A DNA stretch of 64,000 nucleotides from a virus, in the IMG/VR virus record IMGVR_UViG_3300021168_000355, positions 1 to 64,000 of that record; one strand, given 5' to 3'. The notes beneath the pieces were generated by a model. The model saw only the letters and a program-made list of their open reading frames with translations. It was not told the DNA's origin and did no database searches. Of the stretch, positions 1,497 through 54,705 are shown in pieces (the first letter of the stretch is position 1; each line of letters begins with the position of its first letter). The position numbers were made by a program, and so were the translations under genes.

Positions 1497-2443
1497 TGTC
1501 TATTGCCCTATATCATTCAGGGTCATTAGGGGCTGCCTCTCATAGGCAGACCCTAATGAAATTGATCGATTTCCGCCTACTTTCGTTCCACGAAAAATAT
1601 GTGGTGACAGCTAGGAACTATATTAGACAAGTCCAAAATGTAAGAGACACTTCCAATATAACCATAATGTTTGACTCCGGAGCGTTCACGGCGTGGAAGC
1701 GTAAGGAAAAGGATATCGAAGTCACGGATCTGCTATCCAGATTGAAGAGGGCTTTTAGATACTGTGAGGGACGCTTTAAAGAGGTTTATGCAATCTCTCT
1801 GGACAAGATTCCTGGCGAATCTGGTCGAACCCCCAGTGCTGAGGAAGTACGAGAGGCAATCCGAATATCCGATCAAAATCACCATATACTGTCCAACGAA
1901 CTGGGGGATCATGTTCTGCCCGTCTTTCATCAAGGCGAACCCGAATCCAGACTTGATGAAGTGTTGGGCCTCAATGGATCCTATATTTGTGTCTCACCCA
2001 GAAATGATGTCCATGAAGCTGCCCGACGAGGATGGGCTCAGAGAACCCATAAACTAATTCCAAAGAAAGTTCGGACACACGGTCTGGCGGCGACTGGTGG
2101 TGAAATGCTTTTGAACGTTCCCTGGTCCTCGGTTGACTCGGCAGCAATCATCCAAGCCGCAGCGTTCGGTAAAGTATTCATTCCAAACAAGAATACATTA
2201 CTCCTAATCAATGTCTCCAAGCATTCGTCTTTTCGGCGTCATTACGAAAAGCACTATGACCATTGGCCTGACTACAAGGTAAAAAAAACTTTGGAGTCCT
2301 ACCTCTTCCAGGTAGGAGTGACATTGGAAGATATTCGGTCAGAAGGTGGAGCTAGGGAATTGATTAATGCCGCAGTTCTAGTGGAAGCATCTAAAAGAGA
2401 CCATCAAGAGGTTCTTGTAGAACAGGGATTATTTGCATTGTGA
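1496..2443 (+). CDS. dpdA: DpdA-like 7-deazaguanine DNA transglycosylase (TGT superfamily)
   Basis: 315 aa from ATG 1496, which overlaps the queF stop; an upstream start at 1466 would lie inside queF. Motifs match phage DpdA relatives of tRNA-guanine transglycosylase: FDSGAFTAW near residue 60 (equivalent to the TGT DSGGFQ active-site segment), VLPVFHQGE, ICVSPRND, THGLAATG and VPWSSVDSAA. In characterised phages DpdA swaps guanine in DNA for a 7-deazaguanine base and so shields DNA from restriction. Neighbouring queD, queF and queE would supply the substrate. tRNA modification is the alternative role but is less likely in this setting. Confidence 0.85.
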   Translation: MSIALYHSGSLGAASHRQTLMKLIDFRLLSFHEKYVVTARNYIRQVQNVRDTSNITIMFDSGAFTAWKRKEKDIEVTDLLSRLKRAFRYCEGRFKEVYAISLDKIPGESGRTPSAEEVREAIRISDQNHHILSNELGDHVLPVFHQGEPESRLDEVLGLNGSYICVSPRNDVHEAARRGWAQRTHKLIPKKVRTHGLAATGGEMLLNVPWSSVDSAAIIQAAAFGKVFIPNKNTLLLINVSKHSSFRRHYEKHYDHWPDYKVKKTLESYLFQVGVTLEDIRSEGGARELINAAVLVEASKRDHQEVLVEQGLFAL

Positions 2444-2769
2444 GCAAGAGCAATAGGAATAGACTCTATGTGGGTAGATCAATTCGCCATGAAGGGTCAC
2501 CATGTTTGGGTTGCGGTAAGATATTGGATGCAGGAGCTGGGGTCGGTCATAGAAAGAAACCTCATCCTGGTGCTATTTCAATATGCCTTGCATGTGGGCA
2601 TATTCAAGCTTATGGAGCTGGACTAAAGCTTCGGGAGCTTAATGATGAGGAGATATTGGCTATAGCTGGTGATAAGAAAATTCTTACCATTGTGAAGGCG
2701 GCGGGTTATGCCAGAGAGTTCTCTGACAAGGGTGGGTATCCTTATTACCAATGGAAGCGTATGCATTAG
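2440..2769 (+). CDS. Zinc-ribbon-like hypothetical protein
   Basis: 109 aa starting at GTG 2440, overlapping the dpdA stop by 4 bp. Two CxxC pairs (CLGC near residue 22 and CLAC near residue 49) look like a four-cysteine zinc site. The rest has no recognised domain. Tight coupling with dpdA makes an accessory role in modification possible but unproven. Confidence 0.75.
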   Translation: MSKSNRNRLYVGRSIRHEGSPCLGCGKILDAGAGVGHRKKPHPGAISICLACGHIQAYGAGLKLRELNDEEILAIAGDKKILTIVKAAGYAREFSDKGGYPYYQWKRMH

Positions 2770-3982: not shown

Positions 3983-4197
3983 AACAGCCAAAGCTTAAAA
4001 AAGGTAAATACAAGTGTGCTGGGTGCAAAGGAATCTTCAACAAGGGGTGGTCTGACAAAGAGGCAGCAGAAGAATTCCATGAAAACTTTCCCGATCAACC
4101 ATTGGATGAACAAACTGACCTTATTTGTGACGTTTGTTATGACCTGATTATGGCAGACATGAAAGCCAATCCCTGGAAGTATGAAGGACTAGAGTGA
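3979..4197 (+). CDS. Small zinc-binding hypothetical protein
   Basis: 72 aa from GTG 3979, overlapping the previous stop by 4 bp. It has CAGC near residue 13 and CDVC near residue 50, two CxxC pairs that could form one zinc site around an acidic middle. Its stop overlaps queE. Function unknown. Confidence 0.7.
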   Translation: MKQPKLKKGKYKCAGCKGIFNKGWSDKEAAEEFHENFPDQPLDEQTDLICDVCYDLIMADMKANPWKYEGLE

Positions 4198-4901
4198 TGC
4201 TTGGAACCAATGCTGTTGCCCATGCTACCGACCTCGCGACATGGGACCAAAAGTATTCGGTCTCCGAGATATTTCCCACCATACAAGGTGAAGGACCGTT
4301 TAGTGGATATCCATCAGTCTTTGTCCGTATGGCGACTTGCAATCTCCGATGCCACTTCTGCGATACCGATTTTGACAAGAAAATGGAAATGACTTCCGAA
4401 GATATAATTAGGGAGATTAAAATCCACAAGCCACAACCTCTAGTAGTGATAACTGGCGGAGAGCCACTACTACAACCCATAAAACAATTGATCGACCTTA
4501 TTCACCACAGATTAAAATATAAAATGGTACAAATTGAGACGGCAGGGACTGTCTGGTTAGAATCATTAAACCAAACCAATATCCGCATCGTTGTTTCTCC
4601 CAAAACTCCAGAAATCAACCATAACGTTAAGACCGTCGCACATTACTGGAAATATGTTATCTCCGCTAAAGATGAACATTGCCCAGATACAGGCGTTCCC
4701 ATAACTGCCACACAACCTGGGGGAAACAAGGCTCGCCTTGCATTGCCACCACCCTGGCTTAGACCTGTCGATGTATTCTTGATGCCACAAGAGGGTGCAG
4801 GTGAGGATATGGTGGCAAATTATAAAAAAATAGCCGAATTATCAATGAAGCATGGCTATCGGGCATCTGTGAGAATCCACACGATAATGGGATTACGATA
4901 A
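4194..4901 (+). CDS. queE: QueE, 7-carboxy-7-deazaguanine synthase (radical SAM)
   Basis: 235 aa. The radical-SAM cluster motif CxxxCxxC is at residues 49-56 (CNLRCHFC), preceded by the QueE mark FPTIQGEGPFSG and followed by TGGEPLLQ near residue 85, the SAM-binding GGE motif. QueE converts 6-carboxytetrahydropterin to 7-carboxy-7-deazaguanine. Start is GTG 4194 (4-bp overlap) or ATG 4197. No QueC is visible in the window, so the host or another part of the phage genome must make preQ0 from this product. Confidence 0.92.
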   Translation: MMLGTNAVAHATDLATWDQKYSVSEIFPTIQGEGPFSGYPSVFVRMATCNLRCHFCDTDFDKKMEMTSEDIIREIKIHKPQPLVVITGGEPLLQPIKQLIDLIHHRLKYKMVQIETAGTVWLESLNQTNIRIVVSPKTPEINHNVKTVAHYWKYVISAKDEHCPDTGVPITATQPGGNKARLALPPPWLRPVDVFLMPQEGAGEDMVANYKKIAELSMKHGYRASVRIHTIMGLR

Positions 4902-7433: not shown

Positions 7434-8345
7434 ATGACGGATATCACGGTAGCCCAGGAAACTGGGATTGTTATAAGGACTGCGGAGCAGTGGCGACAAT
7501 ACGTCCAGGAAGCTTCATTCTTGGAACTTGATGCCATCCTTGAGAAAGGACGACGGATTCGGGAATTTCATTCCGAGTTCTTTCGGGACAAAGAGAAGTG
7601 GGGTGGCACGTGGACGGTCGCGTGCAAAAACATCCTTTTCCTTAGTCAATCAAGCTGTTCCCTTTACGAAACAATCAACCGTGTTTTCGATCCGCTTTTA
7701 TTGCAAAGGGTTCGTCATCTTTTGCCCTGCGATATCATGTCCCTATCATTGATCGCTAGAGCGGTCGAATTGGATCGGGGCGTTGTCAATGAGGCAGCCG
7801 CCACTAACATTCTGTCTCCTGAAATGAATCGGGAAGCTGCGACAAAGGTCCTCAAAGCCGCCGAACAAGTTGCTGAGGAGCATGTGATAAACCTCATCAG
7901 GGAGGGTAAAACTGATGAGGAGATATTTAAATCCACAGCATTGACTTACCAGAAAGTGACCGACCTCAAGAAACAGGTCGGCGACAGAGCAACGGAATTG
8001 AATCCAGAAGATGTTGGTCCAGATGTTGCGCGCGAGATACCAACTCCACCTCCCTCAGCGCCGGCTGCTGCGCCGAAGAAGGTGACTGTAACGGCGCCAC
8101 AGCAGCAAGTTGTTCCGCCACCACCGGCCTTATCACCTTTCAATGCGATACGGTTCGAGGTACAGAACTTAACCAATGTGATCATGGAGGATACGCTTAA
8201 AGTGATCCTCGAGTTCCGTTCCGAGTTCCCAGAAGTGTTCGCAACCATAGCTCAATGGGACGCGAAATTTGGTCCTCTGGCTGTGACAACCGTCCTCAAG
8301 CAACTCCAGCCAGACTTTAATGACGGAGAAGCAAGCCCAAAATGA
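7434..8345 (+). CDS. DUF3102/ParB-HTH-like DNA-binding candidate, paralogue A
   Basis: 303 aa. Residues about 15-145 match two other genes in the window (62734 and 63543): an EQWRQYV start, an EKGRRIREFH helix, a short loop, a segment resembling the DUF3102 or ParB-type helix-turn-helix, then an LIARAVELDRG helix. A proline/alanine linker (about 200-240) joins a helical C-terminal domain near 245-295, which paralogue B also shares in shorter form. Role is inferred only: transcription control or partition. It is more GC-rich than paralogue B. Its end overlaps the GcrA-like gene by 4 bp. Confidence 0.8.
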   Translation: MTDITVAQETGIVIRTAEQWRQYVQEASFLELDAILEKGRRIREFHSEFFRDKEKWGGTWTVACKNILFLSQSSCSLYETINRVFDPLLLQRVRHLLPCDIMSLSLIARAVELDRGVVNEAAATNILSPEMNREAATKVLKAAEQVAEEHVINLIREGKTDEEIFKSTALTYQKVTDLKKQVGDRATELNPEDVGPDVAREIPTPPPSAPAAAPKKVTVTAPQQQVVPPPPALSPFNAIRFEVQNLTNVIMEDTLKVILEFRSEFPEVFATIAQWDAKFGPLAVTTVLKQLQPDFNDGEASPK

Positions 8346-8848
8346 GTAAGCCTTCTGTTGTCCTTTCTCCCGAGGAGCATGATCGAGTTGTGGAGTTGGT
8401 AAAGTCGGGGCGTACAATCAAGGGGATCGCGGACGAGTTCGGTTTCACTGCTAAGGGCGTTTCAAGTTACCTTAGGCGGAATAACATCGAACGCCCTGAG
8501 TCTCTTGATGGGGAAAAGGATACGCAGAAGGCTGCCCTCCAAGAACTACTCGACCGATCTAAAGAGGTAAGAGAAAAAGAAAGGGAGAAAAGAGCGTCCC
8601 AGCCAGAGCCACCTAGAGAAATTTTTGATCCAACTCCATCCGACTTTAAAATGCGCCTTATCACCCTAGCGGAGAAAAAGCAATACGACTGCTCTTGGAT
8701 CATTGGTGATCCCAAGAAATATTATCGGTATTGTGGTAATTCGACGATTGGAGTTATTGGTGTGTACTGTGAATACCACAAGAATATATCTCGGAACAAA
8801 CAACAGGTATCTTCGCCAAAACCCTATGTACCCGTAAATCACAAATAA
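8342..8848 (+). CDS. GcrA-like transcriptional regulator
   Basis: 168 aa. The N-terminus is a helix-turn-helix (SGRTIKGIADEFGFTAKGVSSYL, about residues 20-42), followed by a charged linker. The C-terminal region carries the cysteine/histidine pattern of GcrA: DCSWIIGDP, YCGNS, then YCEYH. In Caulobacter and relatives GcrA binds RNA polymerase sigma70 and activates promoters according to GANTC methylation. A phage copy could redirect host transcription to the many sigma70-like phage promoters seen here (inference). Its ATG overlaps the previous stop. No CcrM-like methyltransferase is visible. Confidence 0.75.
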   Translation: MSKPSVVLSPEEHDRVVELVKSGRTIKGIADEFGFTAKGVSSYLRRNNIERPESLDGEKDTQKAALQELLDRSKEVREKEREKRASQPEPPREIFDPTPSDFKMRLITLAEKKQYDCSWIIGDPKKYYRYCGNSTIGVIGVYCEYHKNISRNKQQVSSPKPYVPVNHK

Positions 8849-8872
8849 CTAGCAGTGGACAGCGTTCTGTGC

Positions 8873-8878
8873 TATTAT
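8873..8878 (+). promoter_or_regulatory. Extended -10 promoter of the structured RNA
   Basis: TATTAT at 8873-8878 preceded by TGTGC, matching the extended -10 of the other phage promoters. A good -35 at 17 bp is absent; a TGGACA lies only 11 bp upstream. Predicted transcription start is near 8885. Confidence 0.45.
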
Positions 8879-8884
8879 ACAGAA

Positions 8885-9110
8885 TGAAAGGTGATACTTG
8901 CTCGGGGAATCTCATACCGCAGCGGAACCTAGACTACCGGCGAGGGTACGTGGAGATTGTTGCATGTTAATCTCCATCAGTCCACTACAAGGCATTGTTC
9001 GGGCTCCCGAGCAAGGAGTCGCTTCGGCGACAAGGTCATTGAGCCCGTGAAACGATGCAACGTCTAGGATACTCGCCCCCGATGACTCCCGTCGTCGGGG
9101 GCGGTATTTA
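8885..9110 (+). ncRNA. Candidate structured RNA with several pseudoknots
   Basis: About 225 nt with no credible reading frame. Pairings read directly: CTTGCTCGG 8897-8905 with CCGAGCAAG 9007-9015; TGGAGATT 8951-8958 with AATCTCCA 8969-8976; CGGGCTC 9000-9006 with GAGCCCG 9041-9047, crossing the first helix and abutting it; a GTCGC-TTCG-GCGAC hairpin 9018-9031; hairpin-loop GTTGCAT 8959-8965 with ATGCAAC 9055-9061; CCTAGAC 8928-8934 with GTCTAGG 9062-9068; and TACC/GGTA 8935-8948. A strong terminator follows. It matches no RNA class I can name. It could be a stand-alone RNA or a leader/riboswitch for the secreted protein at 9125. Confidence 0.7.
9074..9110 (+). terminator. Terminator-like hairpin at the end of the structured RNA
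   Basis: A 13-bp stem with one G-T pair (9074-9086 with 9091-9103), TCCC loop, followed by a weak T-rich tract GTATTTATT. The ribosome binding site of the next gene (GAGGAGG) comes directly after, so read-through control is possible. Confidence 0.7.
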
Positions 9111-9124
9111 TTGAGGAGGGAAAA

Positions 9125-34710: not shown

Positions 34711-35589
34711 TTAATGGGACCGTCGGTCAGGCAATCCCATTCGACTCACAATCTGGCGGGGACGAGCCATCTGGTGGATGAACGTCTTTTTGCCATGGTA
34801 GGTGGTGATGTTTCGACCCGCTTCATCCCGCTTGGAGGTGGCGCGGATTTCGTTGTCCTCCAAATCAGTTGGATTCAGAGAGGCTTCGATGGCATCGGCA
34901 TAAACCCGACGTTCAATGCTGTCGAAGAAGGCGCCCTCGGGAATGATGGAGAGGTCAGCGTCCTTGTTGTCGGCGCTGAACTCCTTCAACCCATTGGCAA
35001 GGCGGCGGCGATAATTCATCTTGGTTTCGCCGTCAAGCGGACGTGGAGCCTTCTTGTTGAAGCCCTGATAGACAGAATCCGCTTTGGATTGGATATCTGC
35101 CATCGCATTGAAGTCCTCGTCGGACAACTGCTTTGGAATCATCGCCCTGATTTCAGGCAATGCAGCTTCCAATTCCGCAAGCTTCTTCTTGGTCGCTGCG
35201 AGTTCGACCGCAGTTGCATCGGCGCGGGCGTCGGCAGCCGCATCCTTCTTATGAAGGAGGTGAAGGTCGCCGTCGTCCTTCTTGGCGTCGGGCTTGGAGG
35301 CATCGCCCTTTGCAGCGTCGGCAGCCGCAGCAGCGTCGGCAGCAGCTTTGTCAGCCTTCTCTTTCGCATCAGCGGCGGCATCGGCATCAGCCTTCGCGGC
35401 ATCCTCCTTCTTCTTTTTCTCCTCCTCCTTCTCGTTGTCCCAAGCGTCCATTCGGCTCTTGAGGGAGTCACAAGACTTGGAAACCTCTTTCAAGGCGTCC
35501 ATAATCTTTTCGGAGTCGGAACGAGTATCTGCCTTCGCAGCATCGCCCTTTGCAGTCGCGTCCTCTTTCTTGTCCTTGTCCTCGGCCAT
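34711..35589 (-). CDS. Nested scaffold protein, in-frame internal start
   Basis: 292 aa beginning at an internal ATG (codon 337 of the long gene). A strong AAGGAGTT site lies 7-8 bases upstream (35596-35603), inside coding sequence where none is needed. The product would be a highly charged coiled-coil scaffold without protease, as lambda Nu3 is nested in gene C. The prediction rests on the ribosome site and domain border. Confidence 0.6.
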   Translation of the reverse strand: MAEDKDKKEDATAKGDAAKADTRSDSEKIMDALKEVSKSCDSLKSRMDAWDNEKEEEKKKKEDAAKADADAAADAKEKADKAAADAAAAADAAKGDASKPDAKKDDGDLHLLHKKDAAADARADATAVELAATKKKLAELEAALPEIRAMIPKQLSDEDFNAMADIQSKADSVYQGFNKKAPRPLDGETKMNYRRRLANGLKEFSADNKDADLSIIPEGAFFDSIERRVYADAIEASLNPTDLEDNEIRATSKRDEAGRNITTYHGKKTFIHQMARPRQIVSRMGLPDRRSH

Positions 35590-36597
35590 ATCTGTAACTC
35601 CTTTTGAGGTTGACACTCCTGTGGGAATATGCTCTTGTGTTCCCTCAGGCTCTTTTACAATTGAATCCGCTCGAACCATATCTGCTCGGATTCCTTCTGC
35701 TGGTCCGCCTTTATCCCAAACACCTGTTTTACAGATCGCTAAATGATCCACATACGTGGGCTTACCTTCAATCAATAAAGTGGATCCGTCCGAAAGCTTT
35801 AGAGTTGTGTTTTCGGTCGGGTCTCCGAACACCACAGTGGGTGACGTAGATAAGGTATGATCGGCCAAACGTTGATTTGCCTCATCATCATAAATCCGTG
35901 CTACCACATTGATTTGATCATCCTCAATCCATGAATAGCCAGTGGTACCTACCACTCGCTTGCGATGCTCCTCACTATCTAAAGTGGCTCCAGGCGGGTG
36001 CCACCAGATCACAGGTATTCCGGACATTCTCTCCATCAGACCAGGAGTCAACCAAATCTGAGGATCGCGGTAGACATATTCATCCAATGAGGGACGATGC
36101 GAGAACCCTGTCCCAGTTGCCCTCATCACATAAAAGGTTGCATTCTCAACCCTTTGGGGAGAACTTAATCCTTCGTGCGCCATCGCACGCGAAATCTCCA
36201 TTTCGTCCATTTTCGGTCGCCGGAGCGCCAACTCAACACCTGGATGAAGGTTGAGCGACTGGGCTTCATCGGCTGTGAACCATCCATAAGCGGTGTGTTC
36301 GTCATCAAGCTTGCATCGGAATTGGTCATCGACCTTTTTGACGAATGTGGTAAAGTCCACACCGTTAAAGAGGTAGCGGCATAGCTCACCGTCCATTGGT
36401 CCAGGGTTGAACCCTGTTTCCTCAATAGCCTCTCGTATAGCTGTAATTTCAGCGGTTTCATTATTCTCTGTCTTACCACCAGGGATACCCCAATAGCCTC
36501 CCATATCTCCTTTATTGGAGCGAAGCATAAAGAGGAATTTATCCTTTGGAGCTATAAAAAGGATACCTGCCGCTTTTATGATATCATCCGGTGGCAA
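34711..36597 (-). CDS. Fusion: NUDIX hydrolase + DUF2213 prohead protease + scaffold
   Basis: 628 aa. Residues 10-125 form a NUDIX domain with a complete NUDIX box (GGKTENNETAEITAIREAIEETGF pattern at 40-63, all glutamates present). Residues about 150-315 match the DUF2213 prohead protease, including EYVYRDPQIWLTPGLMERM and TSPTVVFGD. From about 337 the protein is Ala/Asp/Lys-rich coiled coil (scaffold-like) with a conserved ending near RMGLPDRRSH. The scaffold part can also be made on its own (see nested entry). NUDIX fused to the protease might hydrolyse nucleotides or only be structural. Confidence 0.85.
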   Translation of the reverse strand: MPPDDIIKAAGILFIAPKDKFLFMLRSNKGDMGGYWGIPGGKTENNETAEITAIREAIEETGFNPGPMDGELCRYLFNGVDFTTFVKKVDDQFRCKLDDEHTAYGWFTADEAQSLNLHPGVELALRRPKMDEMEISRAMAHEGLSSPQRVENATFYVMRATGTGFSHRPSLDEYVYRDPQIWLTPGLMERMSGIPVIWWHPPGATLDSEEHRKRVVGTTGYSWIEDDQINVVARIYDDEANQRLADHTLSTSPTVVFGDPTENTTLKLSDGSTLLIEGKPTYVDHLAICKTGVWDKGGPAEGIRADMVRADSIVKEPEGTQEHIPTGVSTSKGVTDMAEDKDKKEDATAKGDAAKADTRSDSEKIMDALKEVSKSCDSLKSRMDAWDNEKEEEKKKKEDAAKADADAAADAKEKADKAAADAAAAADAAKGDASKPDAKKDDGDLHLLHKKDAAADARADATAVELAATKKKLAELEAALPEIRAMIPKQLSDEDFNAMADIQSKADSVYQGFNKKAPRPLDGETKMNYRRRLANGLKEFSADNKDADLSIIPEGAFFDSIERRVYADAIEASLNPTDLEDNEIRATSKRDEAGRNITTYHGKKTFIHQMARPRQIVSRMGLPDRRSH

Positions 36598-54309: not shown

Positions 54310-54640
54310 GAGAGCAAAAGTGTATCGATGGTGTATCCAAGTACCGTATCTCTTGTAAGTTATTGATATCATTGAGCTTTTTAAATGAGGAAATACACTA
54401 ATACACTAAATACACTGGAATCTAACAAAGTTCCGTGTAACCATGATTGTGGGAAAAAATCCCTGTTCCGCAATCTACCACACACTTAACCTGTAACTAC
54501 TCACAGTTGTAAGGTATGACATACACAACTTTAACGACCATTTATTTATTTATTTAGTCCCATATAGAAATTTGTAAACCCCTTGTGTCTAGTGTATCGT
54601 GTGTATTCGCCTGTAAAAATAAATCATTTTTGTGGATATA
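54310..54640. other. AT-rich repeat region, candidate replication origin
   Basis: Contains tandem ATACACTA units (54393-54416), inverse TGTATC units (54320-54338 and 54585-54609), a TTTA x4 run (54541-54556) and one DnaA-box-like TGTGGATA (54631). It is clearly more AT-rich than neighbouring DNA and sits upstream of the primase-helicase. 54043-54309 shows no supported gene. Confidence 0.5.
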
Positions 54641-54647
54641 TACGGTA

Positions 54648-54676
54648 TTGACAAGGACAAGCTTCCATGCTACTAT
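54648..54676 (+). promoter_or_regulatory. Phage promoter TTGACA-17-TACTAT
   Basis: TTGACA 54648-54653, 17-bp spacer, TACTAT 54671-54676 with CATGC before it. Drives the replication block. Confidence 0.85.
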
Positions 54677-54705
54677 ACATAATAAAGGAAAACAGGAAAA
54701 TCCTG

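Follow-up and report, generated by a model that had tools for sequence, protein, structure and literature searches.

Comparative evidence for a pseudoknotted structured RNA in Caulobacter phage phiCbK and other phages

Structured RNAs described in phages and bacteria

Several described classes of RNA resemble the one considered here. HDV-like (delta-like) ribozymes, theta included, do occur in phages (PMC10879173), and their 5' strand pairs into a loop closed by a second helix, thus forming a nested pseudoknot, as is also the case in the new RNA. The latter, however, is larger, has stacked helices b, c and d plus a side hairpin in place of P2/P3, differs in its conserved core sequences and gives no Rfam match. 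GOLLD and ROOL are likewise pseudoknotted structured RNAs of phages and prophages without assigned function (PMC12286853), but they are far larger (GOLLD often exceeds 800 nt) and often lie near tRNA islands, whereas ARAGORN finds no tRNA or tmRNA in the window, i.e., the whole stretch of 64,000 nucleotides analysed; their Rfam covariance models found no match there either. For the orphan structured RNA motifs of the Breaker/Weinberg type, the evidence is of the same kind, i.e., covariation, terminators and occurrence in metagenomic phages, but none of those in Rfam 15 matches the new RNA at gathering threshold. Finally, stand-alone and 3'-UTR-derived bacterial sRNAs are similar in size and in the layout of promoter and terminator. 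To our knowledge, a pseudoknotted rigid core is rarely kept across unrelated phages in base-pairing sRNAs.

A cmscan with Rfam 15 at gathering thresholds gave no match in the whole window or in three fragments carrying homologs (L082, L083, L084). Permissive scans yielded no credible match in the window and L082 (E ≤ 10) or in L084 (E ≤ 5), and for L083 sub-threshold matches only, mostly around its terminator hairpin. In the phiCbK genome paper, Rfam was reported to find no functional RNA except tRNAs (PMC3556154). We regard the RNA family and its fold as categorically new, phage structured RNAs without assigned function being already known as such.

The locus and the fold of the RNA

The window is taken from a 76,778-base (76.8 kb) IMG/VR virus record, that of an uncultured tailed phage of the contractile-tailed type, with tail sheath, portal and terminase genes and a gene for a Pol I-type DNA polymerase. 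GcrA is a cell-cycle regulator of alphaproteobacteria and, because a GcrA-family gene lies upstream of the RNA (Table 1) and homologs of the RNA occur in Caulobacter phages, an alphaproteobacterial host is probable. Another GcrA-like stretch, a partial one (19.3 bits), is located at G000:65635-65760, outside the window. The phage also encodes a radical SAM protein, QueE-like by inspection (window 4194-4901; L006:5288-6001 in a relative), which hints at a modified guanine (7-deazaguanine) in the phage DNA. A 628-aa head-region protein with a NUDIX domain (window 34711-36597) matches phrog_6216, and this protein and the major capsid protein are common to Klebsiella, Pantoea, Yersinia and Shewanella phages (51-54% identity).

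No plausible gene is present at 8849-9124, as the earlier note on this DNA had said of the region, and the complementary segments that it had read by eye are indeed there. The plus strand folds at -97 kcal/mol vs -73.6 kcal/mol for dinucleotide shuffles (z -4.5; 0 of 200), and because the opposite strand would have A-C wherever the alignment shows a G-U pair, the plus strand is the RNA. Together with the comparative data below, this indicates that 8885-9112 is a real structured RNA; for the family, a size of about 160-230 nt is predicted.

Table 1. Features of the RNA locus in the window and of its counterparts in two Caulobacter phages
Feature	Position	Strand	Remarks
GcrA-family gene	8342-8848		just upstream of RNA; Pfam 27.3 bits, cut-off 26.9
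Promoter-like element	8850-8878	+	TAGCAG (8850-8855), 17 nt, TATTAT (8873-8878), extended TG
Whole RNA gene, approximate transcript	8885-9112	+	fold z -4.5; matches of covariance models R1, R2 and R3
Pseudoknot helix a, 5' strand	8897-8907	+	CUUGCUCGGGG; pairs with 9005-9015
Conserved unpaired segment	8917-8927	+	CCGCAGCGGAA (family CCUGCAGC...); alignments A8/A9
Closing helix b, 5' strand	8928-8934	+	both-side changes in 6 of 7 pairs
Junction b/P2	8935-8943	+	UACCGGCGA, consensus [UA]AC[CG]GGCRA; GGC invariant in 8 of 8 A9 sequences
Variable hairpin P2 (GnG...CnC)	8950-8985	+	GUGGA/UCCAC in the window; inner GGAGAUU/AAUCUCC
Junction P2/c	8986-8991	+	UACAAG, near-invariant; deviates in Colossus and PW only
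Helix c, 5' strand (8 bp)	8992-8999	+	7 of 8 pairs changed on both sides; 100% of cells paired
Helix d, 5' strand	9000-9004	+	CGGGC; both-side changes in 2 of 4 modelled pairs
Pseudoknot helix a', 3' strand	9005-9015	+	directly 3' of helix d 5' strand
Variable hairpin between a' and d'	9018-9031	+	GUCGC/GCGAC; in MFE; sequence not conserved
Helix d, 3' strand	9043-9047	+	partner of 9000-9004
Conserved bulge between d and c	9048-9050	+	UGA; CGA in Caulobacter phages; GA invariant in A9
Helix c, 3' strand	9051-9058	+	partner of 8992-8999
Junction c/b	9059-9061	+	AAC; AA invariant in A9
Closing helix b, 3' strand	9062-9068	+	partner of 8928-8934
Intrinsic terminator	9073-9112	+	14-pair stem 9073-9104, then TATTTATT
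phiCbK RNA	NC_019405 complement(about 125,330-125,540)		
Hypothetical CDS D865_gp263, phiCbK	NC_019405 complement(125331-125534)		overlaps RNA, same strand
Hypothetical CDS gp157, Karma	JX100811 125890-126093		overlaps RNA, same strand

Across the family, the order of elements is a - n7-10 - CCUGCAGC - b - [UA]AC[CG]GGCRA - P2 - UACAAG - c - d - a' - variable hairpin - d' - (U/C)GA - c' - AA - b' - terminator. As read from the alignments, the fold is a three-way junction of b, P2 and c+d with a bulged NGA where d meets c, and the 5' end folds back as a pseudoknot of 7-15 bp into the apical loop past d, adjoining d. The sequences of the helices vary freely, whereas the unpaired core (CCUGC.., ACnGGCRA, UACAAG, the GA bulge and AA) is nearly fixed, also between unrelated phages. 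The base of P2 is GUG/CAC in L006 and L084 and GCG/CGC in L082, L083 and the Caulobacter phages, while its inner part is variable; in the phiCbK group, there is an extra stretch between b and GGGCAAG, which is clearly a hairpin in Rogue.

The -10 element that the earlier note had seen is present as TATTAT with an extended TG, and a similar TGCTA..TATA extended -10 motif is found upstream of the homologous RNA in L006, but a generic sigma-70 scan gives the element no score. On the plus strand of the window, TGCTA.T[AC]TA occurs at 8870 and 54668 only, and motifs of the TGCTA..TATA type may constitute a promoter class of this phage. The segment at 54638-54680 is strongly promoter-like (TTGACA ... 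TGCTACTATAC) and of the same type as the promoter of the RNA. In L006, a second sRNA-like element with the same TGCTACTATA promoter motif lies directly 3' of the polymerase gene (L006:8055-8200); it has a helix CACCTAG/CTAGGTG and a GC-rich terminator with a T-run, and it is not at the same place in the window. No promoter is recognisable in L082, L083 and L084. The terminator, too, had been noted before and is present; it is also visible in L006, L083 and the sequences of the phiCbK group and was predicted by the annotators in Colossus, while in L082 a U-tract is not present after the hairpin.

Homologs and compensatory mutations

The GcrA-like protein and the polymerase led to near relatives of the window phage: L002 (99%), L003 (87% across the region) and L006, whose polymerase is 65% identical and in which most similarity around the RNA is gone, with three blocks kept. 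Three patterns derived from conserved blocks were scanned over IMG/VR, and the third, CTACAAGG-N3-8-TTCGG-N35-65-GTGAAAC, yielded L082, L083 and L084, which model R1 scores at 31-44 bits. In these three, the match also covers parts outside the search pattern: the pseudoknot, helices b and c, and the blocks CCUGCAGC and GGGCAAG. Among unrelated pattern hits, no such features are seen apart from a near-match in helix c of L081, which is due to chance. Caulobacter phages then came up in a blastn search with L083. Run on whole records of cultured phages of this host, model R2 gave 38.1 bits for Swift, 34.4 for Karma and Magneto, 33.9 for phiCbK and 30.5 for Rogue, with E-values per record from 5e-7 to 4e-5, and model R3 added weaker, syntenic copies in PW (22.9 bits, E 0.0025) and Colossus (20.2 bits, E 0.012). 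The Colossus match ends at the annotated terminator, upstream of the DUF1643 gene, and b (CCCAGGUC/GACCUGGG), c (GCAUCCCU/AGGGGUGC) and the pseudoknot (CGGAGCGCC/GGCGCUCCG) can be read in it directly. Colossus and PW are the most degenerate members and have no UACAAG. The two hypothetical genes annotated over the RNA in phiCbK and Karma (Table 1) are probably spurious annotations.

At E ≤ 0.01, R2 matched none of 40 other phage records, and it found nothing in the capsid relatives among Klebsiella, Pantoea, Yersinia, Shewanella and E. coli phages. Its search of 399 Pseudomonadota genomes gave nothing as well, which is uninformative at the depth of 10 candidates scored per genome. Several candidates were discarded as chance: L091-L098 and L106, which are mostly coding and have no helix, and the polyketide-synthase-like hits L008, L009 and L011. 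The genome pattern scan that gave L091-L098 began with A and excluded GCTACAAGG members, making its negative outcome a weak one. A partial match in Vibrio phage MAR10 (10-13 bits) was rejected.

In the core alignment of six sequences, 97.6% of the cells are paired, and both partners have changed in 12 of 22 pairs. When phiCbK and Rogue are added (alignment A9, eight sequences), 97.1% of the pair cells are standard, compared with 69% in shuffles and 30-43% when the alignment is slid; both-side changes are found in 16 of 22 pairs (50 cells), and the covariation score is 0.80 as against 0.22 in shuffles and at most 0.11 when slid. On four of five measures, none of 500 shuffles did as well. In A8 and A9, variable loops were removed from the core sequences by hand and N was inserted to keep the columns in register, which biases the pair counts towards the structure. 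In L082-L084, CTACAAGG, TTCGG and GTGAAAC are no evidence, having been demanded by the search pattern; the covarying pairs fall outside them, and the Caulobacter phages, whose discovery did not depend on that pattern, show that neither TTCGG nor GTGAAAC is needed. The sequences of the window group are closely related and were, therefore, counted as one lineage. Helix c is intact in phiCbK (GUCGAACU/AGUUCGAC) and Rogue (ACCAGACU/AGUCUGGU) despite several differing positions, and helix d changes in these phages from CGGK/KCCG to CCGA/UCGG. At least seven phage types, phiCbK among them, have preserved the base pairs through matched mutations.

Helix a does not fit covariance models and was tested by duplex folding instead. 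In the window, a/a' has 10 Watson-Crick pairs and one G-U. Its placement is the same in all seven sequences tested, with a ending 7-10 nt 5' of CnGCA and a' starting 0-3 nt 3' of GUUCGG, while its sequences differ between lineages (L006, L082, L083 and L084 included). Sequence shuffling gave p-values of 0.0005-0.05 in six of the seven and 0.39 in L083, the latter because of its high GC content; L083 has 10 perfect pairs (CCUGUCGACC/GGUCGACAGG). In phiCbK and Rogue, a/a' reads GACCGCC/GGCGGUC, close 5' of CCUGC.

With these data, the contacts proposed in the earlier note can be judged. It had claimed a crossing helix, and a/a' is such a pseudoknot, recurring with different sequence across lineages; the pairing of 8928-8934 with 9062-9068 is the strongly covarying closing helix b. 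What it took for an abutting and crossing helix (9000-9006/9041-9047) is real as helix d, of which 4-5 bp are conserved, but it extends helix c and is not a separate tertiary contact. The proposed loop contact 8959-8965/9055-9061 is complementary in the window but not conserved: the loop is deleted in L003 and missing in other lineages, and the contact competes with the 3' strand of helix c (9055-9058). Its complementarity is probably due to chance. Such non-conserved contacts are what could be said for chance structure in an intergenic region as an explanation of the whole, a reading that is hardly conceivable, being refuted by the core alignments, the conservation across phages and the silence of R2 on the 40 other records. 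The note had named homologs without compensatory changes as the finding that would speak against its proposal; the homologs do carry such changes, and a new pseudoknotted RNA, as it had suggested, agrees with both the covariation across unrelated phages and the Rfam results.

Genomic context and possible function

The window phage has only two protein pairs in common with the L082 and L084 fragments, both about 36% identical, and none with L083. The neighbours of the RNA differ by lineage: L083 has lysis genes and a polymerase on the opposite strand, L082 and L084 have small genes of unassigned function, and in the Caulobacter phages a DUF1643 gene follows on the same strand. PADLOC defence models found nothing among the neighbours. 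The gene for a small CxxC/CxxC protein (window 2440-2769; L084:6196-6483; 36% identical) lies just downstream of the RNA in L084 and 6 kb upstream of it in the window. A GcrA gene accompanies the RNA in the window phage, phiCbK, Swift, Karma, Magneto and Rogue; a strict link is discounted by Colossus and PW, which carry the RNA without GcrA, and by L006, which shows none in 57.6 kb.

We favor, with a probability of roughly 0.55, the view that this is a new family of phage RNAs, structured and free-standing, that act in trans on a conserved partner, most likely of the host. The common factor among the carriers is the RNA, in nearly all of them with a terminator, which favors a trans-acting RNA. 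Transcription would start at its own promoter in the window group and, in L082, L083 and L084, would run on from the gene upstream; the transcript would end at the intrinsic terminator, and the rigid unpaired core would be presented in trans to one conserved partner. The missing U-tract of L082 and the lack of a recognisable promoter in L082, L083 and L084, where the RNA starts close to a stop codon, speak against this view to some extent, so that some members may not be free-standing. As the carriers share almost no proteins, this partner would most likely be a molecule that alphaproteobacterial hosts have in common, i.e., a protein, the ribosome or RNA polymerase.

Alternatively, the RNA could act in cis on a neighbouring gene, as a leader, a riboswitch or a 3'-UTR element for processing or stability, which we consider unlikely though not negligible. 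The 5' strand of the RNA begins a few bases past the upstream stop codon in L082, L083 and L084, and the position of the DUF1643 gene in the Caulobacter phages would also fit, but the terminator 3' of the RNA would normally cut off a downstream gene, and no conserved alternative terminator/antiterminator pairing is seen. A further point against a cis role is that, in L006 and L083, the gene downstream runs opposite to the RNA; the neighbours are also different in every lineage, so that the RNA is not in the 5' UTR of a consistent same-strand gene. The leader for a secreted protein that the earlier note had considered is disfavored by the same opposite-strand genes and intervening terminators. 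A new self-cleaving or otherwise catalytic ribozyme, with the nested pseudoknot and the invariant unpaired junction as the active site, appears quite improbable. The dense invariant unpaired core at a pseudoknot-locked junction would suit it, and the topology a-b-hairpin-a'-hairpin-b' resembles the nested pseudoknots of HDV-like ribozymes; yet, their layout P1-P2-P3-P1'-P4-P2' is not found, since b is separated from a' by c and d, and a' follows d without an intervening hairpin. In addition, no Rfam ribozyme model matches at permissive thresholds, and no constant flanking cleavage position is apparent. Still less probable is a signal for replication, packaging or recombination, e.g., an R-loop primer or a virion RNA: a DNA polymerase gene is nearby in the window, L006 and L083, but none adjoins the RNA in the stretches read of the Caulobacter phages, GC skew shows no switch at the RNA, and the carriers have few genes in common.

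Beyond the preferred trans-acting RNA, the family could, tentatively and with considerable doubt, represent a new class of catalytic RNA, or an RNA machine hijacking RNA polymerase, the ribosome or a cell-cycle factor of the host, horizontally spread among alphaproteobacterial phages including phiCbK. With hardly any proteins common to its carriers, the RNA itself must be under strong selection. Structured phage RNAs of unassigned class seldom occur in an easily handled laboratory phage, and this one is present in phiCbK, a classic, long-used Caulobacter phage for which an RNA-seq series of the infection is published (PMC10688885). With a covariance model and a laboratory phage at hand, the function of the RNA is directly testable.
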